A stretch of DNA of 10,255 nucleotides from Candidatus Adiutrix sp. (GTDB lineage Bacteria > Desulfobacterota > Desulfarculia > Adiutricales > Adiutricaceae), in the NCBI GenBank assembly GCA_031285975.1, contig JAITVE010000184.1:1-10255 (forward strand), given 5' to 3'. Each line of letters starts with the position of its first letter. Within the stretch, counting starts at the first letter, position 1. Positions 1 through 10,255 of this stretch are shown here, piece by piece. The notes under the pieces were generated by a model, which worked only from the letters and a program-made list of their open reading frames with translations, ran no database searches and was not told the origin of the DNA. The position numbers and the translations under genes are program-made.

Positions 1-1
1 C

Positions 2-643
2 CACGACCCCATGGAAAGCACCACCCACGCCCAGCGCGTGGCCGCCCTGGCCGTGATGCTCTATGAGGAATGGGCCCGCAAACGCTCCGCCGACCCCCAC
101 AGCCTCAAGCGCGAACTCGGCCGCCTGCGCGTGGCCGCCATGCTCCACGACGTGGGCAAGGTCGGCATTCCCGACTCCATCCTCAACAAGCCCGGCCGCC
201 TGGCGCCTACCGAGCGCCAGGAAATGGAAAAACACGTGCTCCTTGGCACCCGCCTCTTCGAGCCCGTCTACTCCGGCCTTGACGTGATGACCCACGATGT
301 TATCCTCAACCACCACGAGCGCTGGGACGGGCGCGGCTACCCCGGCTGGATCAACCCCGAAACCGGGCTGCCCCTCCCCGGCCACCACGGCCAGAACCAC
401 CGCGCCGTCGGCAAAAAAGGCGAGGAAATTTCCATCTTCGGCCGCGTCACCGCCGTTGCCGACGTCTTCGACGCTTTAATTTCCCCCCGTCTCTACAAAG
501 AAGCCTTCGACGAAGAACTCGTCATCCAAATAATGCTTCAGGAAAGCGGGCACCACTTCGACCCCGAGCTGGTGGATATTTTGCTCACCAACTTCGAACG
601 CGCCAAACGAATTCGCAACCGCTTCCCCGAAAGCCAGCACTGA
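2..643 (+). CDS. HD-GYP domain protein, C-terminal part (5' end outside window)
   Basis: Metal-dependent phosphohydrolase domain of the HD-GYP class, which hydrolyses cyclic di-GMP in the cytoplasm. The frame is open to the window edge and the visible part starts inside the domain, so the true start and any N-terminal sensor domain lie upstream. Numbering from the ATG at 11, the visible ligand motifs are H6, HD at 46-47 followed by GK, H75, HHE at 101-103, GYP at 109-111 and D151 in the ADVFDAL motif. All of these are intact, so activity is expected. Between GYP and the next conserved block (EEISIFGRV, from 138) lies a loop of about 26 residues, rich in G, P and H, that is longer than in the usual family pattern; I recall similar loops in deltaproteobacterial members. 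It is convergent with the next gene. The partner domain cannot be seen. Confidence 0.93.
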   Translation, partial: HDPMESTTHAQRVAALAVMLYEEWARKRSADPHSLKRELGRLRVAAMLHDVGKVGIPDSILNKPGRLAPTERQEMEKHVLLGTRLFEPVYSGLDVMTHDVILNHHERWDGRGYPGWINPETGLPLPGHHGQNHRAVGKKGEEISIFGRVTAVADVFDALISPRLYKEAFDEELVIQIMLQESGHHFDPELVDILLTNFERAKRIRNRFPESQH

Positions 644-646
644 GAG

Positions 647-663
647 TACAAGCCTTGCTTGTA
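647..663. other. Small hairpin between convergent genes
   Basis: A perfect 7-bp inverted repeat (TACAAGC / GCTTGTA, 3-nt loop) starts four bases after the HD-GYP stop codon. No T-run follows on either strand, so it is at best a weak bidirectional terminator. The rest of the 125-bp convergent spacer shows nothing recognisable. Confidence 0.35.
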
Positions 664-768
664 AAGACGGCTCAAACAAGCGGCGGTGCCGTGGCGGCGT
701 GGAAGAGGGTGGGCGGTGCTTGCCAGTGGGGTGTGGGAAGAAGAAATAGCGGCGGCTCGAAGGACGGA

Positions 769-1554
769 TTACAAATCGTCATCCTCGGGGGGCGCGTTGG
801 GGACGATGATGTCGCCGGGGCGGAGCAGTGGGGCGGCCAGGCGGCGCCAGCGGCGCCAGGCGTAGAGGGTGCGGCGGTCGGCGTCAGCGGGCGGGAGCTG
901 CGGCGTGGTTTGTTCCGCGTCTTCTTCGCCTTTCAGGGTCGCCCACATGGAGCGCTCTTTGGCGGCGGCTTCGGCTAGCAGTTGTGCACTCCGGCGGCGG
1001 TCGTGTTCGCTGACGGCCCAGAGGGCCAGGTAGGAGCGGTCGTCCAGGCCGGGGAGGGCGTGCGCGCCGCCGCCATCCTGATAATGCCGCAGGGACGAGA
1101 CGAGCCCCGGCAGGCTTTCGGGGGCCCGGCCGATGGTCTCCAGAAGGCCGCCCCCCAGTTCACCGGCGGCGCGGATCAGTTGATCCAGGGCCGCGAAATC
1201 TTCTTCCGGGCTGCGGAGGCTCGGCAGGAGCAGCGGCGCGGCCTGGGGCCGCTCTCTTGTTTCCTGCTTCTTTTCTGTGTACAATAGAGCATTTTGCAAT
1301 TTACCTGCCTTTAGTAAATTGCAAAATACGTAAACATCCGGGCGCTTTTCATTTTTCGCATATGACCTTGAAAGAGAAAAGCGCTCTAGTCTGCGTACCA
1401 GAAATAATTCCCAGGCGGGCCAGGAGAGGTAGAAGATCGGGCCGGATGCAGCGTCCGAAAGCGGCTCCGCCAAAGTTGGGGGGAACGGCAGGGGGGCCAG
1501 AATGCGCCGCGTTTCCGGCTGATTTTGCTCGGCGGACTGATTGGTCATAGCCAT
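769..1554 (-). CDS. Hypothetical protein, 261 residues
   Basis: I do not recognise this protein. The ATG at 1554 is chosen because GAGG and AAGGA lie just upstream; a TTG eight codons earlier (1578) and an ATG two codons later (1548) are alternatives. There is no signal peptide and no clear membrane segment. The N-terminus is Q/P-rich, followed by a hydrophobic stretch at about 38-53 (GPIFYLSWPAW). A glycine/leucine-rich helical part follows, then a basic segment near 235-245 (AWRRWRRLAAP) and an acidic tail (PEDDDL). Codons for about residues 52-98 are AT-rich (about 39% GC by hand count over 1261-1400) in a gene that is otherwise very GC-rich. That part contains two perfect inverted repeats. 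It may be a later in-frame insertion or an operator inside the gene. The gene is divergent from the small gene at 1616. The long, biased open frame supports it being real, but its function is unknown. Confidence 0.7.
   Translation of the reverse strand: MAMTNQSAEQNQPETRRILAPLPFPPTLAEPLSDAASGPIFYLSWPAWELFLVRRLERFSLSRSYAKNEKRPDVYVFCNLLKAGKLQNALLYTEKKQETRERPQAAPLLLPSLRSPEEDFAALDQLIRAAGELGGGLLETIGRAPESLPGLVSSLRHYQDGGGAHALPGLDDRSYLALWAVSEHDRRRSAQLLAEAAAKERSMWATLKGEEDAEQTTPQLPPADADRRTLYAWRRWRRLAAPLLRPGDIIVPNAPPEDDDL
1291..1327. repeat. Perfect 14-bp inverted repeat inside the hypothetical gene
   Basis: The arms at 1291-1304 (ATTTTGCAATTTAC) and 1314-1327 are exact reverse complements with a 9-nt loop. 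The repeat is translated in frame as part of the hypothetical protein (about residues 76-88, around CNLLKAGKLQN). It lies in a strongly AT-rich island within a GC-rich gene. Confidence 0.9.
1342..1384. repeat. Second inverted repeat (9-bp arms) in the same AT-rich island
   Basis: GCGCTTTTC at 1342-1350 is matched by its reverse complement at 1376-1384, with 25 nt between. It sits 14 bp from the 14-bp inverted repeat, also within the coding frame. Together they fill about 95 bp of the low-GC part of the gene. Confidence 0.75.
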
Positions 1555-1576
1555 TTCCTTTTCCTCGTCATTGCAC

Positions 1577-1598
1577 AAAAAAACCGCCGGAGGGGCGG
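1577..1598 (-). terminator. Terminator-like hairpin in the leader of the minus-strand hypothetical gene
   Basis: Read on the minus strand, CCGCC, a CCTCC loop and GGCGG are followed by seven T. This is the form of an intrinsic terminator. It ends about 22 nt before the start codon of the hypothetical gene. It could stop antisense transcription from the right, or act as an attenuator for the gene. No alternative pairing (anti-terminator) was worked out. Confidence 0.5.
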
Positions 1599-1615
1599 AC
1601 TCTAAAGGTTATACC

Positions 1616-1915
1616 ATGAATGACTCAAGCACGACTCTCGGCTGCTCCCCGATGGATACCCAAATCTTCAACCAGGGCCTGTCAGTGACGGCCACCTCGG
1701 CCTACATCATCATCGCCGCGCTTATGGGCGACGGTTTCAGGCCGGAAATGCCCGCCATCACCGCCCGCTGGAACGCCGCCCCGGAAGAATTGGAAGCGGC
1801 CCTGGCCGAACTGCGGGCCCTGAACATCGCCGAGCGTCACCCCGGCCTTGATGGCGGCGAGCCGGTCTACATCGTGAATCCGGCCTCGCTCTGGGGCAAG
1901 CGGGCGGAACTGTAA
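1616..1915 (+). CDS. Small conserved-looking protein, possible winged-helix fold, 99 residues
   Basis: The start at 1616 is supported by AAAGG seven bases upstream; the frame is open further upstream, but without a better ribosome site. The body (about 20-75) reads as three helices: an alanine/isoleucine-rich helix (TSAYIIIAALMGDG), then PEMPAITARWNA, then the helix PEELEAALAELRALNIAER. A short PVYIVNP strand segment follows. This order and the 'N-A-A-P-E-E-L-E-A-A-L-A-E-L' helix resemble small winged-helix transcription regulators, but I know no named family. No membrane segment or signal is convincing. It is divergent from the hypothetical gene at 769-1554 and could regulate it; that is only a guess from position. 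Coding is supported by regular GC-rich third positions and a good ribosome site. Confidence 0.72.
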   Translation: MNDSSTTLGCSPMDTQIFNQGLSVTATSAYIIIAALMGDGFRPEMPAITARWNAAPEELEAALAELRALNIAERHPGLDGGEPVYIVNPASLWGKRAEL

Positions 1916-1941
1916 GCCGTTTCGCCGCAATGGTTTCTCTG

Positions 1942-1970
1942 CGTCAACCCCGGCGAAGGCCCGGGTTTTC
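1942..1970 (+). repeat. REP-like palindrome; possible terminator of the small gene
   Basis: GCGTCAACCCCGGCGAAGGC is followed by CCGGG and TTTT. A 5-bp G:C stem (1949-1953 with 1961-1965) closes a 7-nt loop and leads into four T. The core matches the palindrome at 10013-10034. It lies 27 bp after the stop of the small gene and may double as its terminator. Confidence 0.6.
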
Positions 1971-1996
1971 TGTATCCATCACCCCTGTGCCAGGCC

Positions 1997-2040
1997 CGGC
2001 GAAAGGCATGGGTTCCGGCCTTCGCCGAAATGGCGGGACG
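1997..2040 (-). repeat. REP-like palindrome, inverted copy
   Basis: The reverse complement of 2001-2026 matches 10021-10046 at 24 of 26 positions (GGCGAAGGCCGG, two differences, CCCATGCCTTTC). GGCGAAGGC and GCCTTTCGCC form the stem with one bulged base. It lies just downstream of the flavoprotein gene's stop and faces the copy at 1942, which gives a head-to-head pair. Confidence 0.75.
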
Positions 2041-2049
2041 GGGCCGCAA

Positions 2050-3162
2050 TCAGGCAATGGCCAGGGCGGCTTCGTATTCCTCGGCCAGGGTTTCGATAAG
2101 TTTTTTCACCGACACAATGTCGCAGACCTTGGCCACGTTGGCCCCGGCAAAGGCGAAGCCGCGATCCAAAAGGCCCTTCTGGGCGTTGACCAGGGCCAGG
2201 CTGATGCAGTAGGGCGTGGTTTTGGGGTCGCAGGTTTTGATGCAGTGGTAAATGCAGTGGGGCGGCTTTTTCAGGCCGTTTTCCATGTCTTCCAGGAATT
2301 GGGAGCGGATGGCCCGGCCCGGCAGACCCACCGGGCTGTGGATAATCATGGAGTCGTCTTCGCCCGCCGCCAGGTAGGCTTTTTTGAAGGCCAGGGAGGC
2401 GTCGCATTCCCAGGTGGTCACAAAGCGGGTGCCCATCTGCACGCCCGCCGCGCCCAGTTCCATGATTTTGCGGATCTCTTCGCCGGTGTAGACGCCGCCG
2501 CCCGCCAGCACGGGAATAGCCCGGCCGCTTTTGTCTTCAAAGGGTTTCAGGGCTTCCACCACCTGGGGGACAAGCACCTCCAGCCGCTGATCCGCCGCGT
2601 CGAGCTCAGAGCGTTTGAAGCCCAGGTGGCCGCCCGCTTTGGGGCCTTCCACCACCACCATATCGGGCAGGTAGTCATGGCTGTTCAGCCATTTTTTAGC
2701 GATAAGGGTGGCCGCCCGCGCCGAAGAGACGATGGGGGCCAGCTTGGTGTGGATTTCTTCCTGCGCCTTTTCCGCCGCTTCTTTCAGATACCCCGGCAAG
2801 TCCAGCGGCAAACCCGCGCCGGAGAAGATCACGTCGATTTTTTCCGACAGGGCCGTGCGCACCAGGGCGGCGAAATTCACCAGGGCCACCATGATGTTGA
2901 CCCCCAAAAGGCCCGGCGCGTCCTGGCTTTTTTCCCGGGCTTGGCGAATTTGGGCGGCCAGGGCCCGGCTGTCGGCTTCCGCCGGGTGCTGGGCGATATC
3001 TTTTTCCATAAAGCCGATGAGGGCCCCGGCGATAACCCCGATTCCCCCTTCATTGGCCACGGCCGCGGCCAGGCTGTTCATGGAAACACCAATGCCCATG
3101 CCGCCCTGGATGATGGGCAGGGGGATGGTTTTATCGCCGATGGTCAAAGAAGGGAAAGGCAT
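2050..3162 (-). CDS. Nitronate monooxygenase / FabK-like flavoprotein
   Basis: FMN-dependent TIM-barrel oxidoreductase of the nitronate monooxygenase (former 2-nitropropane dioxygenase) superfamily, which also includes enoyl-ACP reductase II (FabK). It is 370 residues long, full length for the family. Visible motifs are QGGMG at 19-23 (N-terminal flavin loop), VVVEGPKAGGHLG at 169-181 with the expected catalytic-type H179, AGGGVYTGEEI at 220-230 and GVQMGTRFV at 240-248 (phosphate-binding part). Near the C-terminus four cysteines, C303, C307, C311 and C319, form a cluster that suggests a metal or Fe-S site; classic nitronate monooxygenases lack it. The start at 3162 has GAGGA six bases upstream. 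It has its own promoter and lies 120 bp from the chemosensory operon, so it is probably a separate unit. The true substrate cannot be told from sequence. Confidence 0.92.
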   Translation of the reverse strand: MPFPSLTIGDKTIPLPIIQGGMGIGVSMNSLAAAVANEGGIGVIAGALIGFMEKDIAQHPAEADSRALAAQIRQAREKSQDAPGLLGVNIMVALVNFAALVRTALSEKIDVIFSGAGLPLDLPGYLKEAAEKAQEEIHTKLAPIVSSARAATLIAKKWLNSHDYLPDMVVVEGPKAGGHLGFKRSELDAADQRLEVLVPQVVEALKPFEDKSGRAIPVLAGGGVYTGEEIRKIMELGAAGVQMGTRFVTTWECDASLAFKKAYLAAGEDDSMIIHSPVGLPGRAIRSQFLEDMENGLKKPPHCIYHCIKTCDPKTTPYCISLALVNAQKGLLDRGFAFAGANVAKVCDIVSVKKLIETLAEEYEAALAIA

Positions 3163-3219
3163 GGGATGTCCTCGCTGAAATTGGCCTCTGAAATTTCTAT
3201 TTTCCAGATTAAGAGGCTT

Positions 3220-3248
3220 AATTTATCAGGTATTTGCCATAAAGTCAA
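3220..3248 (-). promoter_or_regulatory. Sigma70-type promoter of the flavoprotein gene
   Basis: On the minus strand, TTGACT (3248-3243) and TAAATT (3225-3220) are separated by exactly 17 bp. The -35 matches consensus at five of six bases and the -10 at four of six. It is AT-rich, in an otherwise GC-rich region, and lies about 57 bp upstream of the start codon. Confidence 0.7.
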
Positions 3249-3258
3249 AAGGCTTTCG

Positions 3259-3284
3259 AAAAAAAACGGCGGACGGGGCCTTTT
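3259..3284 (-). terminator. Probable terminator of the chemosensory operon
   Basis: AAAAGGC, a CCCGTCC loop and GCC are followed by G and eight T on the minus strand. The stem is short (three G:C pairs, extendable by A:T pairs past one bulged G). It begins within the stop codon of the last operon gene. The T-run and position, between two genes on the same strand and before a new promoter, support the call. Confidence 0.5.
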
Positions 3285-3861
3285 AATTTTTTAGGGCCCG
3301 GAAACCGTCGAACAGAAGGTTGCGTTCGTCGGCGGCAATGGCCGTGGCCGAGGTCATGTCCAGGCCGTGGTCGTCGCCGCCGTCGGCGGTCAAATCCTCA
3401 TGGCCGAGGCTATTTTTGGCCAGAGTCATCAGTTCTTCGGCCTGGCGGCCCTCCCAGGGGCGGGCCAGGGCCCGGCCATAGGCGGGGAGGGCGGCCGCGG
3501 GCCCCACTGTCCGGGCCAAGTCGGCCGTCAGTTCCGCCAGCCAGCGGCGGCAGCGCAGCGCGTCTGCGTCCGGCAAAATAACGGCCACCAAATTGTCCTT
3601 CCGGGCCGCCAGATCTATGCGCCGCAGGGAGGCCCGCACCACGCGGCCCACCGCCGCCCAGTCCGCCGCGCTCAAGCCGGGCATTTCCAGGAGCACCAGG
3701 CTCAGGGGGCGTTCCCAGCGGTCGAGGCGGGCCAGTTCCTGGTTCAGCACCGCCCGGAAATGCAGGTGGTGGTAGAGCCCGCTTTCCGGCTCCAGGCAGC
3801 AGGCCGCTTGTTCTGATATGACGGTCAATTTTTTCAAGGCGACCTCGGGGGAGTTTTCCTC

Positions 3862-3867
<6 letters not shown>
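3283..3867 (-). CDS. Degenerate GGDEF-like protein, last gene of the che operon
   Basis: A 194-residue protein that keeps the outline of a GGDEF (diguanylate cyclase) domain. The usual DxLTGLYN start appears as PESGLYHHLHF at 27-37. It is followed by a helix (LNQELARLDRWERP), the strand LSLVLLEM at 55-62, a helix to residue 83, then IDLAARKDNLVAVILPDAD at 84-102. The last piece aligns with the catalytic hairpin, but the GGDEF residues are replaced by K-D-N-L and one position is missing. Diguanylate cyclase activity is therefore not expected; a binding or scaffold role is more likely. The C-terminal 50 residues are acidic and not recognised. The start at 3867 is 23 bp after the cheB stop; the nearest ribosome site is AGGG, 11 bases away and inside a duplicated cheB end. 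It is probably co-transcribed with cheB, which points to a role in this signalling pathway. Confidence 0.78.
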
Positions 3868-4943
<1,076 letters not shown>

Positions 4944-4976
4944 TTACAGCATGGATAAACCAGGTAAAAGCCCCGC

Positions 4977-5843
4977 CTATTCTTTGAGGTAGATGCAGGG
5001 CGCCACGTATTTGAACGGGTGCTTGAAGCCCGACAGGCTTTCGGAGTGCCCGATGAACAGGTAGCCGCCGGGGGCCAGGATGTTGTAATATTTGTTGACG
5101 AGCTTCATGATGGTTTCTTTGTCGAAATAAATCATCACGTTGCGGCAGAAGATCAGGTCGAGGGGCCCCTTGAACGGCAGGGGATCCATGAGGTTGAAGC
5201 GGCGGAAGGCGATGGTGTTGCGCATCTGGTCGGTGACCTGATACATTTTTTCGCCGCGCTCGGTGTCGGTGCGGTTAAAATGCTTTTGCAGGTATTGGGA
5301 TGGGATGTCCTTGACCCGCTCCGGGCCGTAGCGGCCCGTCTTGGCCACGGTGAGCACTTTGGTGGAAATGTCGGTGGCCAGGATTTTGAAATCCCCGCCC
5401 TGCCCGAAATAGGGGTTTTTTTCCATGACCACCATGGAGATGGTGTAGGGCTCCTCGCCGGAGGAGCAGGCCGCGCTCCAGATGCGGAGGCGGCGGCTGT
5501 TCTGGGCCTTGCGGCGCTTTTCCAGTTCGGGCAGGTAATCCTTGGCCATGAACTGGAAGTGCTGGGGCTCGCGGAAAAAGCTGGTGAGGTTGGTGGCCAG
5601 CGCGTCGAGGAGGAAAACAATTTCCTCGCCGCTCTCATCGCTCATGACATATTTGAAATAGGTTTTGAAGTTGGTGAATTGCAGGGCCCGGATGCGCTTG
5701 GCCAGGCGGGTGCGCATGAGCTCCTTTTTGCCGTCCAAAAGGTTGATGCCCGCAGTTTTGTGGACAAAAGCGGCAATCTCGTGATATTCCTGATCGCTCA
5801 GTTCGATGTTGTTGAAGTCGGTGGGGGCGATGGCTGCGGACAT
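4977..5843 (-). CDS. cheR: CheR chemoreceptor methyltransferase
   Basis: S-adenosylmethionine-dependent glutamate O-methyltransferase acting on chemoreceptors, the partner of CheB in adaptation. It has 288 residues, the normal length. The N-terminal helical domain covers about 14-80. Motifs in the catalytic domain are TNLTSFFRE at 84-92, WSAACSSGEEPY at 122-133 (SAM-binding loop), ATDIS at 156-160, DLIFCRNVMIYFD at 229-241 and FIGHSES at 263-269. No TPR or other C-terminal extension is present. AAGG lies eight bases upstream of the ATG. It is separated from cheW by 114 bp of very GC-rich spacer (5844-5957) that has several short GGCCCGGCC-type repeats but no T-run and no visible ORF, so co-transcription remains likely. 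Confidence 0.97.
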   Translation of the reverse strand: MSAAIAPTDFNNIELSDQEYHEIAAFVHKTAGINLLDGKKELMRTRLAKRIRALQFTNFKTYFKYVMSDESGEEIVFLLDALATNLTSFFREPQHFQFMAKDYLPELEKRRKAQNSRRLRIWSAACSSGEEPYTISMVVMEKNPYFGQGGDFKILATDISTKVLTVAKTGRYGPERVKDIPSQYLQKHFNRTDTERGEKMYQVTDQMRNTIAFRRFNLMDPLPFKGPLDLIFCRNVMIYFDKETIMKLVNKYYNILAPGGYLFIGHSESLSGFKHPFKYVAPCIYLKE

Positions 5844-5957
5844 ATTCTTACCTTCAAATCAAGGCGCGGCCGAGTGCACAGGGGCCGGGCGCGGAAACGG
5901 TTGCAGTGGGAAGGGGAGCGTGCGGCCGGGCCCAGGCGGGCCGGGCCTCCGGGGGGA

Positions 5958-6455
5958 TCAGCCGCCGAACGTCAGTTCCTCGTCAGTCAGGATCAGATCA
6001 ATATCCAGGATAATAATTACCTTGTCTTTGGTTTTGGCCATGCCCCGGATGTATTCGCTTTTCAGCCGGGCCCCGAAATTGGGCGCGGGCTCCACCTGGG
6101 CCGCCGGGATGCTGATGACCTCGGACACCGCGTCCACCACAATACCCATCTGCACCTGGCCGTGAATGGACTTGAACTCAATGACGATGATGGAGGTGCG
6201 CGCGTCGTACTCCGATTCCTCCAGCCCGAACTTGAGCCGCAGGTCGATGACCGGCACCACCTTGCCGCGCAGGTTTATCAGGCCTTTCATGAAGACCGGC
6301 GTCTGGGGCACGGCGGTGATGTCCATCAGGCCGTTGATTTCCCGAACCTTGAGAATATCGACCCCGTAAAATTCGCCGGCCAGCTCAAACTGAAGCAGCT
6401 TGTGATCCTGAACTAAGCCCGGCGTGGGGCAGTTCGGACTGGCTTCCGTGGTCAT
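5958..6455 (-). CDS. cheW: CheW coupling protein
   Basis: Scaffold that links chemoreceptors to CheA in the signalling array. The chosen start at 6455 has AAGGAG six bases upstream; an in-frame ATG 15 codons earlier has no such site. The resulting 165-residue protein is the usual size. The CheW beta-barrel core runs from about residue 19 (KLLQFELAGEFYGVDI) to 157, with the conserved GLINLRGKVVPVIDL motif at 58-72. It lies 60 bp after cheA, with a hairpin in the spacer, and matches the P5 domain at the C-terminus of that CheA in fold type. One CheW and no CheV appear in the window. Confidence 0.96.
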   Translation of the reverse strand: MTTEASPNCPTPGLVQDHKLLQFELAGEFYGVDILKVREINGLMDITAVPQTPVFMKGLINLRGKVVPVIDLRLKFGLEESEYDARTSIIVIEFKSIHGQVQMGIVVDAVSEVISIPAAQVEPAPNFGARLKSEYIRGMAKTKDKVIIILDIDLILTDEELTFGG

Positions 6456-6476
6456 GTGATGCTCCTTATATGGTGA

Positions 6477-6502
6477 GGGCGCGGATGTCGCCATCCGCAC
6501 CC
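6477..6502 (-). other. Hairpin in the cheA-cheW spacer
   Basis: GCGGATG (6481-6487) pairs with CATCCGC (6492-6498) over a 4-nt loop. After one C-A mismatch, GGG/CCC extends it by three pairs. No T-run follows on the minus strand, so it is more likely an mRNA processing or stability element than a terminator. The cheW ribosome site follows nine bases later. Confidence 0.6.
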
Positions 6503-6515
6503 GGTCTTTCGTTGG

Positions 6516-9218
6516 TTAAGAACCAGAGTCCTCCATACCCCAATCGTCGCTAAAGTCAGCCGACGCGCCGCCGTAGTGGAGCGGGCCGCCGCCGTATTGG
6601 CCCGAGGCTTCGAAGAGCCCGGCCACATCGAGAATGAGCCCCACCCGGCCGTCGCCCAAAATGGTGCCCCCGGCCAGGGCCCGCACATATTTCAGGCGTT
6701 CCCCGAGGCTCTTGATAACCACTTCCTGCTTGCCGAGCACCTCATCCACCAACAGGCAGCGGGGCTCGCCCTCGTTCTCTATCACCACCACCAGGGCTTC
6801 GTCCGGGTCGGAGAGGGCCCCGCGCGCGCCGACCAGCTGATCCAGCCGCATCAGGGGCAGAAGGCGCGACCGCACGCGGATCATTTCCCCCTGGTTTTTG
6901 ACCGTGAAATAATCTTCTTTGGGCGGGCGGAAGGACTCCACAATGGAGATGGTGGGGAGGATGTAACGGTGCTCGCCCACCCGCACAATCATGCCGTCGA
7001 TGATGGCCAGGGTCAGCGGCAGGCGGATGGTCATGGTGGAGCCGCGGCCGGGCACGGAGGTGAAATCCACCTTGCCCCGCAGCTTTTCAATGGATTGCTT
7101 CACCACGTCCATGCCGACCCCCCGGCCGGAAACATCCGAAATCTTTTCGGCGGTGGAAAAGCCCGGCGCGAAAACCAGGGCGTGGAGGGCGGCCTCGCTC
7201 AAAACTTCGCCCGGGGCCACCAGCCCCTGGCTCAGGGCCTTGTTGAGCACCCGTTCCCGATCCAGCCCCCGGCCATCGTCGGAGAGCTCGATAACCACGT
7301 TGCCGCCCTGGTGGTAGGCCTTCAGGCGCACCGTCCCCTGGGGGGGCTTCCCGGCGGCCCGGCGCTCGGCGGGCGTTTCCAGGCCGTGATCCAGGGAGTT
7401 GCGCATCAGGTGCACCAGGGGGTCATAGATGCACTCCACCATGTTGCGGTCGATTTCCGTGTCGCTGCCGACGGTCTCGAATTTCACGTCCTTTTCGAAC
7501 TTGTGGGCCAAATCGCGCACCAGGCGGTTCATTTTCTGGAACGTCTGGTGAATTTGAACCATGCGCAGGCTCATGGCGTTGCGCTGCAATTCGGAGGTGA
7601 TGCGGGAGACGTGGGCCAGGTCTTTGCTGATCTTCTGCTCCTTGAGGCAACTGATAGCCTCGTTGGAGGTGATGAGGGACTGGGCGATGACCAGTTCGCC
7701 CACCAGGTCGATGAGGCCGTCGAGCTTCAGAGTCTCCACCTTCACGGTCTGGGCCGCAATCTGGCCGGAGCGCGCGGTCACGCTGCCGCCTTCGCTCTGC
7801 TTCTGCTCGCGGAGGGCCAGGGCCACCTTTTCCGGGGCCCCGATTTTGGATTTCACCAAAAATTCCCCAAGCTTGGTTTCCCGCTTTTCTTCCTGGTTTT
7901 TGATGGCCTCGTCAATGTGCTCGTAGTCCACCTTGCCCAGAGCCACCAGAATTTCGCCCAGCCGCTTGCCGGGGCTGCGCCGCTGCTCGGCCAGGGCTTC
8001 ATCCAGGTCTGCCTGGGTGATGTATTTTTCAGCCACCAGAATATCGCCCAGGGTAGTTTTGCGGGCCTCTTGCTGGGCCTGGATAAGGCCGCCCAGGTCG
8101 CCTTCGGAAATCAGGCCCTTTTCAATGAGAATTTCGCCGATTTTTTTGGGTTTGGGGGCCTGGGCCGTCCCGGAAGTCGCGGCCTCAGCCGGGGCCGCCA
8201 TGGGCAGGATGCCCTGGCGGGCCATCCACAAATCGTCGATGAAGGCTTCCAGCGCGGCCTGGTAGCCGGGCTCCTGCCCGCCGCTGTGGGAGAGCCCCCG
8301 GGGGCCCAGTTCCAGGGCGCCCAGTTCTTTCAGCAGGTAGTCGCAGGCTTTCAGCAAAATATCGGTGACGGCGGTGGAATAGGGCACCTGCTCCTCAGCC
8401 ACGTATTCTATGAGGCCGGAGGCGTTGTAGGCCAGGGCGGCCATGCTTTCCTGCGCCAGCAAACTGGCCCCGCCCAGAATGGCCCGGAAATTGCGGCTCA
8501 ACTCGCTCAGGGCGGCCAGGGGCTCGCTCTTCTGCTCAATGGCCACCAGGAGAACCTGGATTTCCTCCACCTCGGCCACAAATTCCCTCTTGAAATTATC
8601 CACCGACAGGCCGCCGACACGGTGCAGACCCGGCGGGGCCGTCAGTTCCTGATAAGCTTCCGAGACCGGCGCGTCAGCCGCGTCCCCATCGGGGAAATCG
8701 GCAATTTCCGGCGCGGACTCGTCGGGCGGGAAGTCGGGGATGGTCTCCGCCGATTCGTCCTGAGCCGCTTCCACCAACGGCGCGTCATCCTGCCCCGGCA
8801 ACGTAGAAAATTCTGGTTCAGCCACTATCATCGCGGCGGGCAACTCGTCGTCCATATAGCCCTGCGCGGTCACCAAAACGCCCAGAGAGGCCGCCCAGGC
8901 CGCGACGTCGCCCTTGAAGGGGGCCTTCACCGGCAGCGACCGGGCCAGTTCCTGCAACATGGAAATGCCGTCGCCGACCAGGCCCAGGGCCCGCTCCGCC
9001 TCGGGTATCTGGCCCCGGATAACGGCTTTCAGGCTGTCGAGAATCACCCCGATGACGCGGCCCGGCAGGTCGGATTCCAGGGGCGCGAAGGCTTCGGTCA
9101 ACGGCTCCGCCTTCCCGAGCACTCCGCTGACCTCCACCAGGTTGTCCGGGGAAATCATCATCAGGTCAAGGCTGATGGCATTGAGCAGTTCTTCTACTTT
9201 TTCAAGATCGAAAGCCAT
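6516..9218 (-). CDS. cheA: CheA-type kinase with degenerate HPt segments and MshEN-like repeats
   Basis: The central kinase of the operon, 900 residues. Domains in order: residues 1-100, a helical segment that may be a very divergent HPt; 101-203, an acidic, proline-rich linker; 204-300, a clear HPt fold in which the histidine is Arg245; 359-477, four tandem 30-residue repeats (LGEILVxxGxI…LxxAL…Q) like the c-di-GMP-binding MshEN motif; about 493-560, the P3 dimerisation helices (LDGLIDLVGELVIAQ); about 561-740, the ATPase domain with N box HLMRNSLDHGLE (603-614), DDGRGLD (647-653), FAPGFSTAE (683-691) and SGRGVGMDVV (697-706); about 741-880, a CheW-like P5 domain. The ATP-binding motifs are complete. 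No P2 domain is seen. The start overlaps the previous gene's stop (TAATG), with AAGG upstream, so translation is probably coupled. It may phosphorylate an HPt encoded elsewhere. Confidence 0.95.
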   Translation of the reverse strand: MAFDLEKVEELLNAISLDLMMISPDNLVEVSGVLGKAEPLTEAFAPLESDLPGRVIGVILDSLKAVIRGQIPEAERALGLVGDGISMLQELARSLPVKAPFKGDVAAWAASLGVLVTAQGYMDDELPAAMIVAEPEFSTLPGQDDAPLVEAAQDESAETIPDFPPDESAPEIADFPDGDAADAPVSEAYQELTAPPGLHRVGGLSVDNFKREFVAEVEEIQVLLVAIEQKSEPLAALSELSRNFRAILGGASLLAQESMAALAYNASGLIEYVAEEQVPYSTAVTDILLKACDYLLKELGALELGPRGLSHSGGQEPGYQAALEAFIDDLWMARQGILPMAAPAEAATSGTAQAPKPKKIGEILIEKGLISEGDLGGLIQAQQEARKTTLGDILVAEKYITQADLDEALAEQRRSPGKRLGEILVALGKVDYEHIDEAIKNQEEKRETKLGEFLVKSKIGAPEKVALALREQKQSEGGSVTARSGQIAAQTVKVETLKLDGLIDLVGELVIAQSLITSNEAISCLKEQKISKDLAHVSRITSELQRNAMSLRMVQIHQTFQKMNRLVRDLAHKFEKDVKFETVGSDTEIDRNMVECIYDPLVHLMRNSLDHGLETPAERRAAGKPPQGTVRLKAYHQGGNVVIELSDDGRGLDRERVLNKALSQGLVAPGEVLSEAALHALVFAPGFSTAEKISDVSGRGVGMDVVKQSIEKLRGKVDFTSVPGRGSTMTIRLPLTLAIIDGMIVRVGEHRYILPTISIVESFRPPKEDYFTVKNQGEMIRVRSRLLPLMRLDQLVGARGALSDPDEALVVVIENEGEPRCLLVDEVLGKQEVVIKSLGERLKYVRALAGGTILGDGRVGLILDVAGLFEASGQYGGGPLHYGGASADFSDDWGMEDSGS
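7788..8144 (-). repeat. Four tandem 30-residue MshEN-like repeats inside CheA
   Basis: Repeat starts fall at residues 360, 390, 420 and 450, an exact period of 30. Each begins (I/L)G(E/D)(I/F)L(I/V) and ends near a Q: IGEILIEKGLI, LGDILVAEKYI, LGEILVALGKV, LGEFLVKSKIG. The repeats are diverged at the DNA level, so they are old. The basic residue before LG, important in MshEN domains, is K, T, R and K in turn. Confidence 0.85.
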
Positions 9219-9688
9219 TACACGCCTTCTTCCGTCGTCTCATCGTCGTCCGCCCCGGCTGATTCCGGTTCGGCGGCCTCGCCGACCCCGGCGGGGAGGC
9301 TGCGGCCGGACAAAAGCACTTCTTGCCAGCGGCTCAGGCGGCGGCTTTCATTGACGATGGTGTCCACCACTTCATCAAAATATTCGGGGAAACGGGGAAA
9401 GTAATCGGTGAGGCCGCCCGAGAGCGCGTCAATCATGCCCAAAAGGCTGGGCTGGGAAGCCAGGACAATGAGCCGGGCCAGGGGGCAGCGGTTGAGCACT
9501 TCGCGGCCCAGGTTGCGGTCCATCAGCAAATTGGCGTCGGCCAGCAAAAAGTGCAGGCTGGCGCTTTTGATATAGGACTGAACCCCGGAACCGCTGTCCA
9601 CCACCACGACTTCAAAGCCCGCTCCGGTCAGTTTATCGACGAGAGGCTTCAGCGTGTCCAGATCACGACCGACAATAACTACCTTCAT
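9218..9688 (-). CDS. Pseudo-receiver domain protein, first gene of the che operon
   Basis: A 156-residue protein with a response-regulator receiver fold at about 1-115 and an acidic, disordered-looking tail (120-156). Strand and helix order fit a CheY-like fold: VVIVGRD, VDKLTGAGFEVVVVDSG, FLLADANLL, LARLIVLAS, GGLTDYFPRFP. The phosphoacceptor position is kept (D51), but the usual acidic pair is replaced by G7-R8 and the conserved lysine by R99. Normal magnesium-dependent phosphorylation is therefore doubtful. The stop overlaps the cheA start by one base. GGAG ten bases and GAGG two bases upstream of the ATG are the possible ribosome sites. As the first gene under the operon promoter and coupled to cheA, it may be a structural partner or phosphate-independent regulator of the kinase. 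It should not be called CheY. Confidence 0.85.
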   Translation of the reverse strand: MKVVIVGRDLDTLKPLVDKLTGAGFEVVVVDSGSGVQSYIKSASLHFLLADANLLMDRNLGREVLNRCPLARLIVLASQPSLLGMIDALSGGLTDYFPRFPEYFDEVVDTIVNESRRLSRWQEVLLSGRSLPAGVGEAAEPESAGADDDETTEEGV

Positions 9689-9730
9689 TCCCTCGCCACT
9701 CCACAGTCAACATTTGAACGACATTCCATG

Positions 9731-9750
9731 ACAGAGTAAATTTACTCTGT
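9731..9750. promoter_or_regulatory. Perfect 20-bp palindrome, candidate operator
   Basis: The half-site ACAGAGTAAA is followed directly by its exact reverse complement TTTACTCTGT. The centre lies about 52 bp upstream of the first operon gene and just after the candidate -10, so a bound protein would cover the transcription start. The palindrome is AT-rich in a GC-rich region. No known regulator consensus was recognised. Confidence 0.75.
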
Positions 9751-9754
9751 TTAC

Positions 9755-9782
9755 GCTATATTAAAGTAGCATGTTATGTCTT
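9755..9782 (-). promoter_or_regulatory. Candidate sigma70-like promoter of the che operon
   Basis: AAGACA (9782-9777) and TATAGC (9760-9755) are spaced by 16 bp, each with four of six consensus matches. TTTACA with TACTTT, 17 bp apart, is an alternative in the same AT-rich stretch. The location, just upstream of the palindrome and 67 bp from the first start codon, is the main support. Confidence 0.4.
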
Positions 9783-9897
9783 TTTTGTAAATGACAATGA
9801 GTGCGGCGCAGCCAAGGAAAATTCGCCCGGGCTTTTTGGCGCCAACGCCGCCCGCCCGCACCGCTCCCGCCGCCATGCAGGCGGAGGCCGGAAGCCA

Positions 9898-9921
9898 TTG
9901 CCGATAGTCTCTTATCGGCAA
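9898..9921. repeat. Perfect 9-bp inverted repeat containing GCCGATA
   Basis: TTGCCGATA (9898-9906), loop GTCTCT, and the exact reverse complement TATCGGCAA (9913-9921). No T-run follows on either strand, so it is not a standard terminator. One arm overlaps the candidate flagellar-sigma promoter. Confidence 0.8.
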
Positions 9922-9939
9922 GACCCTATGCAAACTACA
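9912..9939 (-). promoter_or_regulatory. Candidate sigma28 (FliA) promoter
   Basis: On the minus strand GCCGATAA (9919-9912) equals the FliA -10 consensus. Twelve bases upstream lies TGTAGTTT (9939-9932), six of eight matches to TAAAGTTT. The usual spacer is 11, so it is one base long. It points toward the chemosensory operon, whose first start codon is about 220 bp downstream. Confidence 0.35.
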
Positions 9940-10012
9940 ATTGCCGCCCGGCCGCAGGGGAGGCAGGGTAAACTCTTCGGGAAAAAATTGCGAACCGCCA
10001 CCCCACCGCATC

Positions 10013-10046
10013 GTCACCCCGGCGAAGGCCGGGGCCCATGCCTTTC
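10013..10046 (+). repeat. REP-like palindrome, third copy
   Basis: CGTCACCCCGGCGAAGGCC followed by GGGG forms a stem of six to seven G:C pairs (CCCCGG at 10017-10022 with CCGGGG at 10029-10034). The 26 bases from 10021 match the inverse copy near 2001-2026 at 24 positions. Confidence 0.75.
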
Positions 10047-10087
10047 TCTTTGCTGGGCATTACTTCTCCCCTACGTCCCCCCACCGC

Positions 10088-10107
10088 GTCATTCCTGCGG
10101 CGGCAGG
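10088..10107 (+). repeat. REP-like half unit
   Basis: CGTCATTCCTGC…GCAGG begins like the copy at 10013 (CGTCA-Y-YCC) and makes a 5-bp stem (10094-10098 with 10103-10107). It lies in the same orientation about 75 bp further on, the paired layout typical of dispersed REP elements. Confidence 0.5.
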
Positions 10108-10144
10108 CAGAGTGTGCCGACAAGTTGCGCTACTGAAAATCAAG

Positions 10145-10229
10145 ACCACCCGCTGAGCGGGTGGTTTGCACAGCCCTATAAGGGCATGGTACAGGCAGCG
10201 CCAGAGGGCGCATTGAAGGTTTGCCAACC
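10145..10229 (+). repeat. Array of four hairpins at the window edge
   Basis: Four stem-loops follow each other: ACCACCCGC/GCGGGTGGT (9 bp, loop TGA, 10145-10165), GCCCT/AGGGC (10173-10185), GCGCC/GGCGC (10198-10211) and GGTT/AACC (10218-10229). The first is followed by only three T, so it would be a weak terminator. The density suggests a structured RNA or the end of a mobile element (for example IS200/IS605 or a REP-associated transposase). The rest lies outside the window. Confidence 0.6.
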
Positions 10230-10255
10230 GCATTCATTTCACAGGCTTGCCCCTT

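Follow-up and report, generated by a model that had tools for sequence, protein, structure and literature searches.

The CheA encoded on the minus strand at positions 6516..9218 of a 10,255-nucleotide stretch of Candidatus Adiutrix sp. DNA (assembly GCA_031285975.1, contig JAITVE010000184.1, positions 1 to 10,255; hereafter the window) carries an arginine where histidine phosphotransfer (HPt) domains carry the phosphorylatable histidine. Judged from sequence, it belongs to a CheA family whose only recognised P1 domain is a pseudo-HPt and which is paired with a pseudo-receiver; this is the new part, and searches of open-access papers turned up no report of a CheA family with this combination. 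The explanation we favour, tentatively and at slightly less than an even chance, is an ATP-competent CheA with a pseudo-HPt, the P4 domain of which would phosphorylate an HPt elsewhere in trans.

The HPt-like domain of the window CheA

The 900-residue protein is laid out as follows, the division into four MshE-type motifs being a reading by eye:

6516..9218, minus strand: CheA, 900 residues, with N-terminal domain, pseudo-HPt (P1), four MshE-type motifs at the P2 place, P3, P4 and P5
8919..9218, minus strand: residues 1-100, N-terminal domain, also present in His-bearing relatives; profile comparison does not class it as an HPt
8313..8609, minus strand: residues 204-302, predicted pseudo-HPt domain (alignment, profile comparison, hidden Markov model)
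8484..8486, minus strand: codon 245, CGG, Arg, in the phospho-histidine column
8475..8477, minus strand: codon 248, Leu, in the catalytic Lys column
8427..8429, minus strand: codon 264, Tyr, at the second conserved His of relatives
8418..8420, minus strand: codon 267, Ser, where relatives have Glu
7803..8144, minus strand: residues 359-472, four 24-residue MshEN-like (cyclic di-GMP, c-di-GMP) motifs, NF053729, 86 bits
7569..7751, minus strand: P3 dimerisation domain, PF02895, 45 bits, over cut-off
7011..7424, minus strand: P4 ATPase/kinase domain, PF02518, 64 bits, over cut-off
6606..6995, minus strand: P5 CheW-like domain, PF01584, 82 bits, over cut-off

The CGG codon of Arg245 (8484-8486, minus strand) lies within ELSRNFRAILGGASLLA, and alignment with relatives that keep FRPFHTIKG places Arg245 on the HPt histidine and Leu248 on the lysine. 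Profile-profile comparison (hhalign) of the family segment with the HPts of other proteins, a set of 11 rows that includes one spurious, one duplicate and some near-identical entries, gives 96.8% with Arg on His, as against 0.3% for a P3/P4 control segment compared with the same HPts. In addition, a hidden Markov model (HMM) of His-bearing HPts, trained on a set that includes orthologous relatives, matches the window segment with a domain E of 4.7e-9 and the CheAs of the family with whole-protein E of 3.7e-10 to 7e-4. Alignment, profile comparison and HMM together confirm the placement of Arg245 and of the following Leu that an earlier note on this DNA had proposed, and the homology of residues 204-302 to HPt domains is supported at this level. 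None of the HPt active-site residues (His, Lys, second His, Glu) is kept in the window CheA. Hpt domains without the histidine amount to 0.9% in one published survey (PMC12632262).

Some results weigh against the HPt assignment. Pfam Hpt, one of the checks suggested in the earlier note, returns no match in the window CheA even at E<=1. A profile built from the family only, run against PDB sequences, reaches the T. maritima P1 (1tqg) at E 0.12, with Arg on His, and SNF7 scores slightly better in the same search (E 0.08); the stronger PDB matches to P1 came from a profile that includes five His-bearing relatives.

Residues 204-300 hold no histidine at all, the earlier note having seen none in 240-300; the protein does have His199 and His311. 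That some other residue of the window CheA serves as the phosphoacceptor is highly improbable: the protein has 12 histidines, including 199, 311 and 434, but within residues 1-490 no His column lies much above half of the family, the best being 434 (33/63) and 280 (30/64). The suggestion that residues 1-100 form a second HPt is rejected, since this segment scores 1.9% against HPts in the profile comparison and 98.9% against the N-terminal domain of the relatives, which has His in at most 4/12 at any column.

Distribution of the loss across the family

The family set comprises 71 proteins (P0001-P0071, from a search that scored only its 8000 best candidates), of which 64 were counted, P0065-P0071 starting after the column. 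The His column reads R in 53, K in 7, H in 2 and Q and S in one each, and the Lys column L in 55, Q in 5, V in 3 and M in 1, whereas H and K, respectively, are found in 12/12 relatives; the second His and the Glu are each kept in 2/64 family sequences versus 12/12 relatives. The relatives counted are P0072, P0074, P0075, P0076, P0078 and seven loci, with P0073 and P0077 left out; the script demanded an HTIKG-like motif in the seven loci, and all seven tried had one. Arg or Lys in 60 of the 64 is more than chance; as to the earlier note's question of whether Arg245 is fixed among homologues, it is the loss of the histidine that is fixed across the family. In the 24 loci available as DNA at this position (one further locus being truncated), CGN, AGR and AAG codons are used, with a single AGT, and this variation argues that the positive charge has persisted through codon changes. 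Although most family sources are metagenome assemblies, a sequencing or assembly error is a practically negligible explanation, since the same state recurs across many assemblies and is also present, with codon CGC, on the complete chromosome CP026657 (L007).

His-bearing CheA relatives, namely L111 and L120 (same taxonomic order), L112-L115 (same class), P0075 (Candidatus Hydrogenedentes) and L030 (Planctomycetota), resemble the family in having a P1, MshE-type motifs (two or four, by eye), P3-P5 and a profile-matching N-terminal domain, but keep FHTIKG or FHSMKG. The motif stands at the same place, as FRPFHTIKG in P0072, L111 and L112-L115, as FHTAKG in L117 and as FHSMKG in L030, and the nearest relative outside the family has the same layout and keeps FHTIKG.

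In a maximum-likelihood tree of P3-P5 (75 rows, P0034 not included; midpoint-rooted for drawing and carrying a long-branch warning), 63 family rows form one clade with support 100/99, and His-bearing L111 groups with this clade (99/96). The clade falls within one GTDB family, which holds Candidatus Adiutrix and is taken as Candidatus Adiutricaceae; from the genus name and general background, we take its members to be termite-gut bacteria. The tree is compatible with a single loss of the histidine at the base of this GTDB family. Retention of the ancestral state in the two family members with His, P0022 and P0026, is rejected by their tree position and their lost Lys (HVIVG and HSLLA): P0022 pairs with P0029, which has Arg, and P0026 is nested in a larger Arg-rich clade.

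The gene is found at E<=1e-95 in 32/37 family genomes, including a complete 4.5 Mb chromosome, and is not found at this threshold in G001, G002, G012, G041 and G044, only the first of which is >90% complete. The median ratio of nonsynonymous to synonymous substitution rates (dN/dS), from 40 of the 300 pairs among 25 loci (those with dS below 0.9, the pairs not being independent), is 0.47 for the N-terminal domain, 0.31 for the pseudo-HPt, 0.15 for MshEN, 0.13 for P3, 0.23 for P4 and 0.08 for P5, a pattern that indicates that the pseudo-HPt is under purifying selection. It is extremely improbable that the system is decaying and that the changes are neutral relics of symbiont genome reduction. 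The same-genus G001 (2.1 Mb) does lack any CheA match at E<=1e-10 and has a disrupted HPt gene, and the pseudo-HPt evolves somewhat faster than P4; but the gene is widespread in the family, the operon order recurs across its loci, and the median dN/dS is below 0.5 in every domain, though the N-terminal domain reaches 1.07 in one pair.

Kinase core, regulatory motifs and operon neighbours

P3, P4 and P5 appear intact, as the earlier note had judged, with Pfam scores over cut-off and kinase motifs kept in 61-64 sequences. The N-box His603 of P4 is kept in 64/64 family sequences, Asn607, Asp610, His611, Gly612, Gly649, Gly698, Gly700 and Gly702 in 63/63, and Asp648 in 61/63, while other positions inside the N, G1 and G2 motifs vary more than these key residues. 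Overall, the kinase motifs are about as conserved in the family as in the His-bearing relatives.

Between P1 and P3, the MshE-type model NF053729 of NCBIfam matches two stretches with 86 bits against a cut-off of 38, and the region also matches MshE and PilF in the PDB. The likeness to the MshEN c-di-GMP receptor domain lies in the 24-residue motifs (PMC5013675). Within them, Gln24 and Gly3 are kept in nearly all, but Arg1 is mostly Lys in motifs 1 and 4, and the turn Gly is kept in only 18/63 in motif 2 and in 0/64 in motif 4; binding of c-di-GMP is putative. An association of MshEN with CheA has been mentioned previously (PMC5013675).

The neighbouring genes of the operon are:

9218..9688, minus strand: receiver-like protein, 156 residues, with altered phosphorylation pocket (Asp13 to Arg, Lys109 to Arg, Thr87 to Ala; Asp57 kept)
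5958..6455, minus strand: CheW, start uncertain (ATG 6455, ATG 6494 or GTG 6500; 5958-6467 searched with Pfam)
4977..5843, minus strand: CheR (Pfam)
3891..4916, minus strand: CheB with canonical receiver and methylesterase motifs (Pfam, column counts)
3283..3867, minus strand: GGDEF-like protein that lacks the GGDEF signature (Pfam E of 0.07, short of the cut-off)

The stop codon of the receiver gene overlaps the CheA start in the window (TAATG), and the order receiver, CheA, CheW, CheR, CheB, GGDEF-like recurs in the family loci where contigs reach, except in L027, which has no GGDEF-like match within 5 kb after CheB. Across the window and 22 other loci (no match was obtained in L013 and L025), the CheY Asp13 column of the coupled receiver is Arg in 23/23, the Thr87 column Ala in 21/23 and the Lys109 column Arg in 22/23, while Asp57 is kept in 22/23, with one Glu. 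Pfam gives no match for the window copy. As a receiver homologue lacking key phosphotransfer residues, the product of the 9218-9688 gene agrees with the description of pseudo-receivers (PMC12632262). Of its 18 close homologues (window copy included), 17 have Asp13 replaced by Arg, 18 have Lys109 replaced by Arg and 14 have Thr87 replaced by Ala; at Asp57 these proteins (P0104-P0121) have D in 13 and E in 5, and Glu at this position activates some regulators (PMC4671073).

The GG[DE]EF signature is kept in 0/16 GGDEF-like proteins of the family. CheB, in contrast, is spared: in 18/18 it keeps the methylesterase motifs and a canonical receiver pocket (Asp, Asp, Asp, Ser, Lys), which suggests that a phosphodonor exists. 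These active-site losses in the coupled receiver and the GGDEF-like gene, with CheB spared, were missed by the earlier note. As read from these columns, a single lineage has lost the donor site, the receiver pocket and the cyclase signature and has kept the kinase, CheB and the operon. Outside the family, the receiver of L111 is canonical (D, T, K and D), and L120 shares the gene order (REC, CheA, CheW, CheR, CheB, GGDEF) but has a canonical receiver and a standard GGDEF counterpart (15323-15877, 153 bits).

The combined losses bear on an alternative that the earlier note had also raised, a scaffold free of phosphotransfer, in which ATP binding by P4 would serve solely to fix the array's conformation and a complex of pseudo-HPt and pseudo-receiver would have its output regulated by receptor state, perhaps with c-di-GMP on MshEN. 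We consider this somewhat unlikely. It would account for the loss of donor site, receiver pocket and GGDEF signature in one family, for the maintenance of R/K at the His column in 60/64 through CGN/AGR/AAG codon changes, and for a facing receiver in which the Asp57 column is still acidic (D in 22 and E in 1 of 23 loci; D in 13 and E in 5 among the 18 homologues) and position 13 is Arg (23/23 loci, 17/18 homologues), D13K giving an active CheY in E. coli (PMC4671073). Yet conservation of the kinase residues, N-box His included, is at about the level seen in the His-bearing relatives, the canonical CheB receiver would be superfluous in a pure scaffold, and D13K leaves EpsW inactive (PMC4671073).

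The acid retained opposite Arg/Lys, together with Arg at position 13, prompts a model of docking without phosphate, which we offer as speculation and regard as unlikely: the pathway would work without His-Asp phosphotransfer at its own output, the charge of Arg/Lys docking on the acid of a receiver locked by Arg13. In the unphosphorylated P1-CheY6 complex of R. sphaeroides, His and Asp are 7.5 A apart and there are no salt bridges (PMC2817712). If docking were real, the arrays, perhaps with c-di-GMP on MshEN, would control a binding switch rather than phosphate.

Elsewhere in these loci, upstream of the canonical receiver of L120 there is a gene that resembles, by eye, a receiver joined to a histidine kinase (8168-9385, plus strand). 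In the window itself, open reading frames without a Pfam match above cut-off occupy 769-1578 (minus strand) and 1541-1915 (plus strand), with matches near the che operon of Smac51 also (L007 17054-18033), and an HD-domain protein (PF13487, 96 bits) at 2-643 (plus strand) is cut by the window edge.

Trans phosphotransfer and relation to known systems

On the trans reading, the operon descends from a chemosensory system whose CheA bore a P1 and which also included a CheY-type receiver and a GGDEF protein. The P1 of CheA lost its phosphotransfer site at the base of the family (His to Arg/Lys, with Lys, the second His and Glu lost as well), yet selection on the domain continued; the receiver of this family lost its Asp13/Thr87/Lys109 pocket, and its GGDEF protein lost the signature. 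P3, P4, P5 and CheB have stayed canonical, and the CheW and CheR genes are still there. P4 would then use ATP and, acting in trans, hand the phosphate to an HPt of a different protein, allowing CheB and other regulators to be phosphorylated, and the pseudo-HPt would have turned into a binding or regulatory domain. While the losses, the phylogenetic placement and the retained motifs are observed, action of the kinase in trans is what we infer. The operon probably signals another way or through a partner, and a trans acceptor for the phosphate of the window CheA is possible, the candidates being the P1 domains of other CheAs or a stand-alone HPt protein.

The assembly of the window genome (78% complete) encodes two further CheAs, one on C137 (HMHSLKG, truncated where the contig ends) and one on C191 (with a C-terminal HPt), both of which carry the P1 His and P4 motifs. 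The genome also has two hybrid kinases with Hpt matches, on C99 over the Pfam cut-off and on C157 just below it (24.2 bits). A short form of E. coli CheA lacks the phospho-histidine and can act across the dimer. By analogy, the window CheA could form a heterodimer with another CheA, its P4 phosphorylating the P1 of the partner; the presence of two other P1-bearing CheAs speaks for this, but their kinase cores are only 39% and 35% identical to that of the window CheA, and we regard it as improbable. The short E. coli CheA arises from an alternative start of the same gene, whereas in the window no longer version of the gene that includes the His exists. A second CheA type with P3-P4-P5 followed by a C-terminal HPt (FRHFHSIKG) occurs at L002 52-2232 and L131 8946-11126 (both plus strand), where the next gene resembles a double receiver.

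The stand-alone HPt protein is found in 32/37 family genomes, one copy being disrupted (stops in G001), with 306, 332 and 276 residues in L126 (4532-5449, minus strand), L127 (5732-6727, plus strand) and L128 (3643-4470, minus strand), and lies at 5783-6505 (minus strand) in L132; in L126, L128 and L132 it adjoins an oxidoreductase-like gene (by eye). Its C-terminal half has no Pfam match up to E 10, and a STAS-like reading of that half was dropped on this ground. CheA and the stand-alone HPt each occur in 32/37 genomes and both in 27, so that each absence falls in a genome having the other. The search that the earlier note had suggested yielded such a protein in the family, but not in the assembly of the window itself.

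A number of results weigh against trans phosphotransfer to these candidates. The 78%-complete assembly of the window yielded no stand-alone HPt; the protein does occur in G002, in which no window-type CheA was found, and in G028 it has a match that adjoins a His-bearing CheA; it is thus not specific to the window-type CheA and, its presence not tracking that CheA, is rejected as a specific partner. The two other CheAs have kinase motifs of their own and hence no need of the window CheA. With the HMM of His-bearing HPts run on frames of >=50 codons, no other HPt was found in 26 family stretches (312,886 bases), the matches being the pseudo-HPts of the CheAs themselves (24/26) and one 53-codon frame at E 6.5. 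Finally, conservation of the ATP site is by itself no proof of phosphotransfer. On the G003 chromosome, about 40 weak Hpt hits, most of them on the same 15-20 profile positions and in frames of ~38 codons, look like a dispersed DNA repeat that mimics the HPt motif.

The comparison with Rhodobacter sphaeroides CheA3/CheA4, drawn in the earlier note, is apt in that a CheA with kinase domains lacks its own phosphorylatable His (PMC10782961). Whereas CheA4 has no P1 at all and its partner CheA3 is in the operon (PMC10782961), the window CheA retains a P1-derived domain, and the 313 kb of family loci yielded no other HPt; a split-kinase partner in the operon is accordingly rejected. The core of the earlier proposal, a kept kinase with a P1 histidine whose loss is fixed, stands, but its likeness to CheA3/CheA4 is weak, because no HPt was found in these loci and the two other CheAs of the genome each carry a P1 His as well as P4 motifs. 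Hpt folds without the conserved His are likewise found in P. aeruginosa ChpA and R. sphaeroides CheA3, but these proteins also possess a working Hpt, whereas the only recognised HPt-like domain of the window CheA lacks the His; the role of His-less Hpt domains is described as yet to be determined (PMC10782961). In this 2023 survey of CheA architectures, P1 is called a core domain, and missing P1s are traced to contig ends or to a separate gene of the operon.

The coupled receiver resembles the pseudo-receivers in being a homologue without key phosphotransfer residues, but all but two of the 20 bacterial atypical regulators described are orphans, whereas this one has a pseudo-HPt CheA coupled to it and retains Asp in 22/23; the same source calls the control of pseudo-receivers a mystery (PMC12632262). 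One family retains, alongside the coupled receiver, a domain of P1 descent that is under selection but stripped of its chemistry, and so offers a natural case for asking what His-less Hpt-like domains and pseudo-receivers do.

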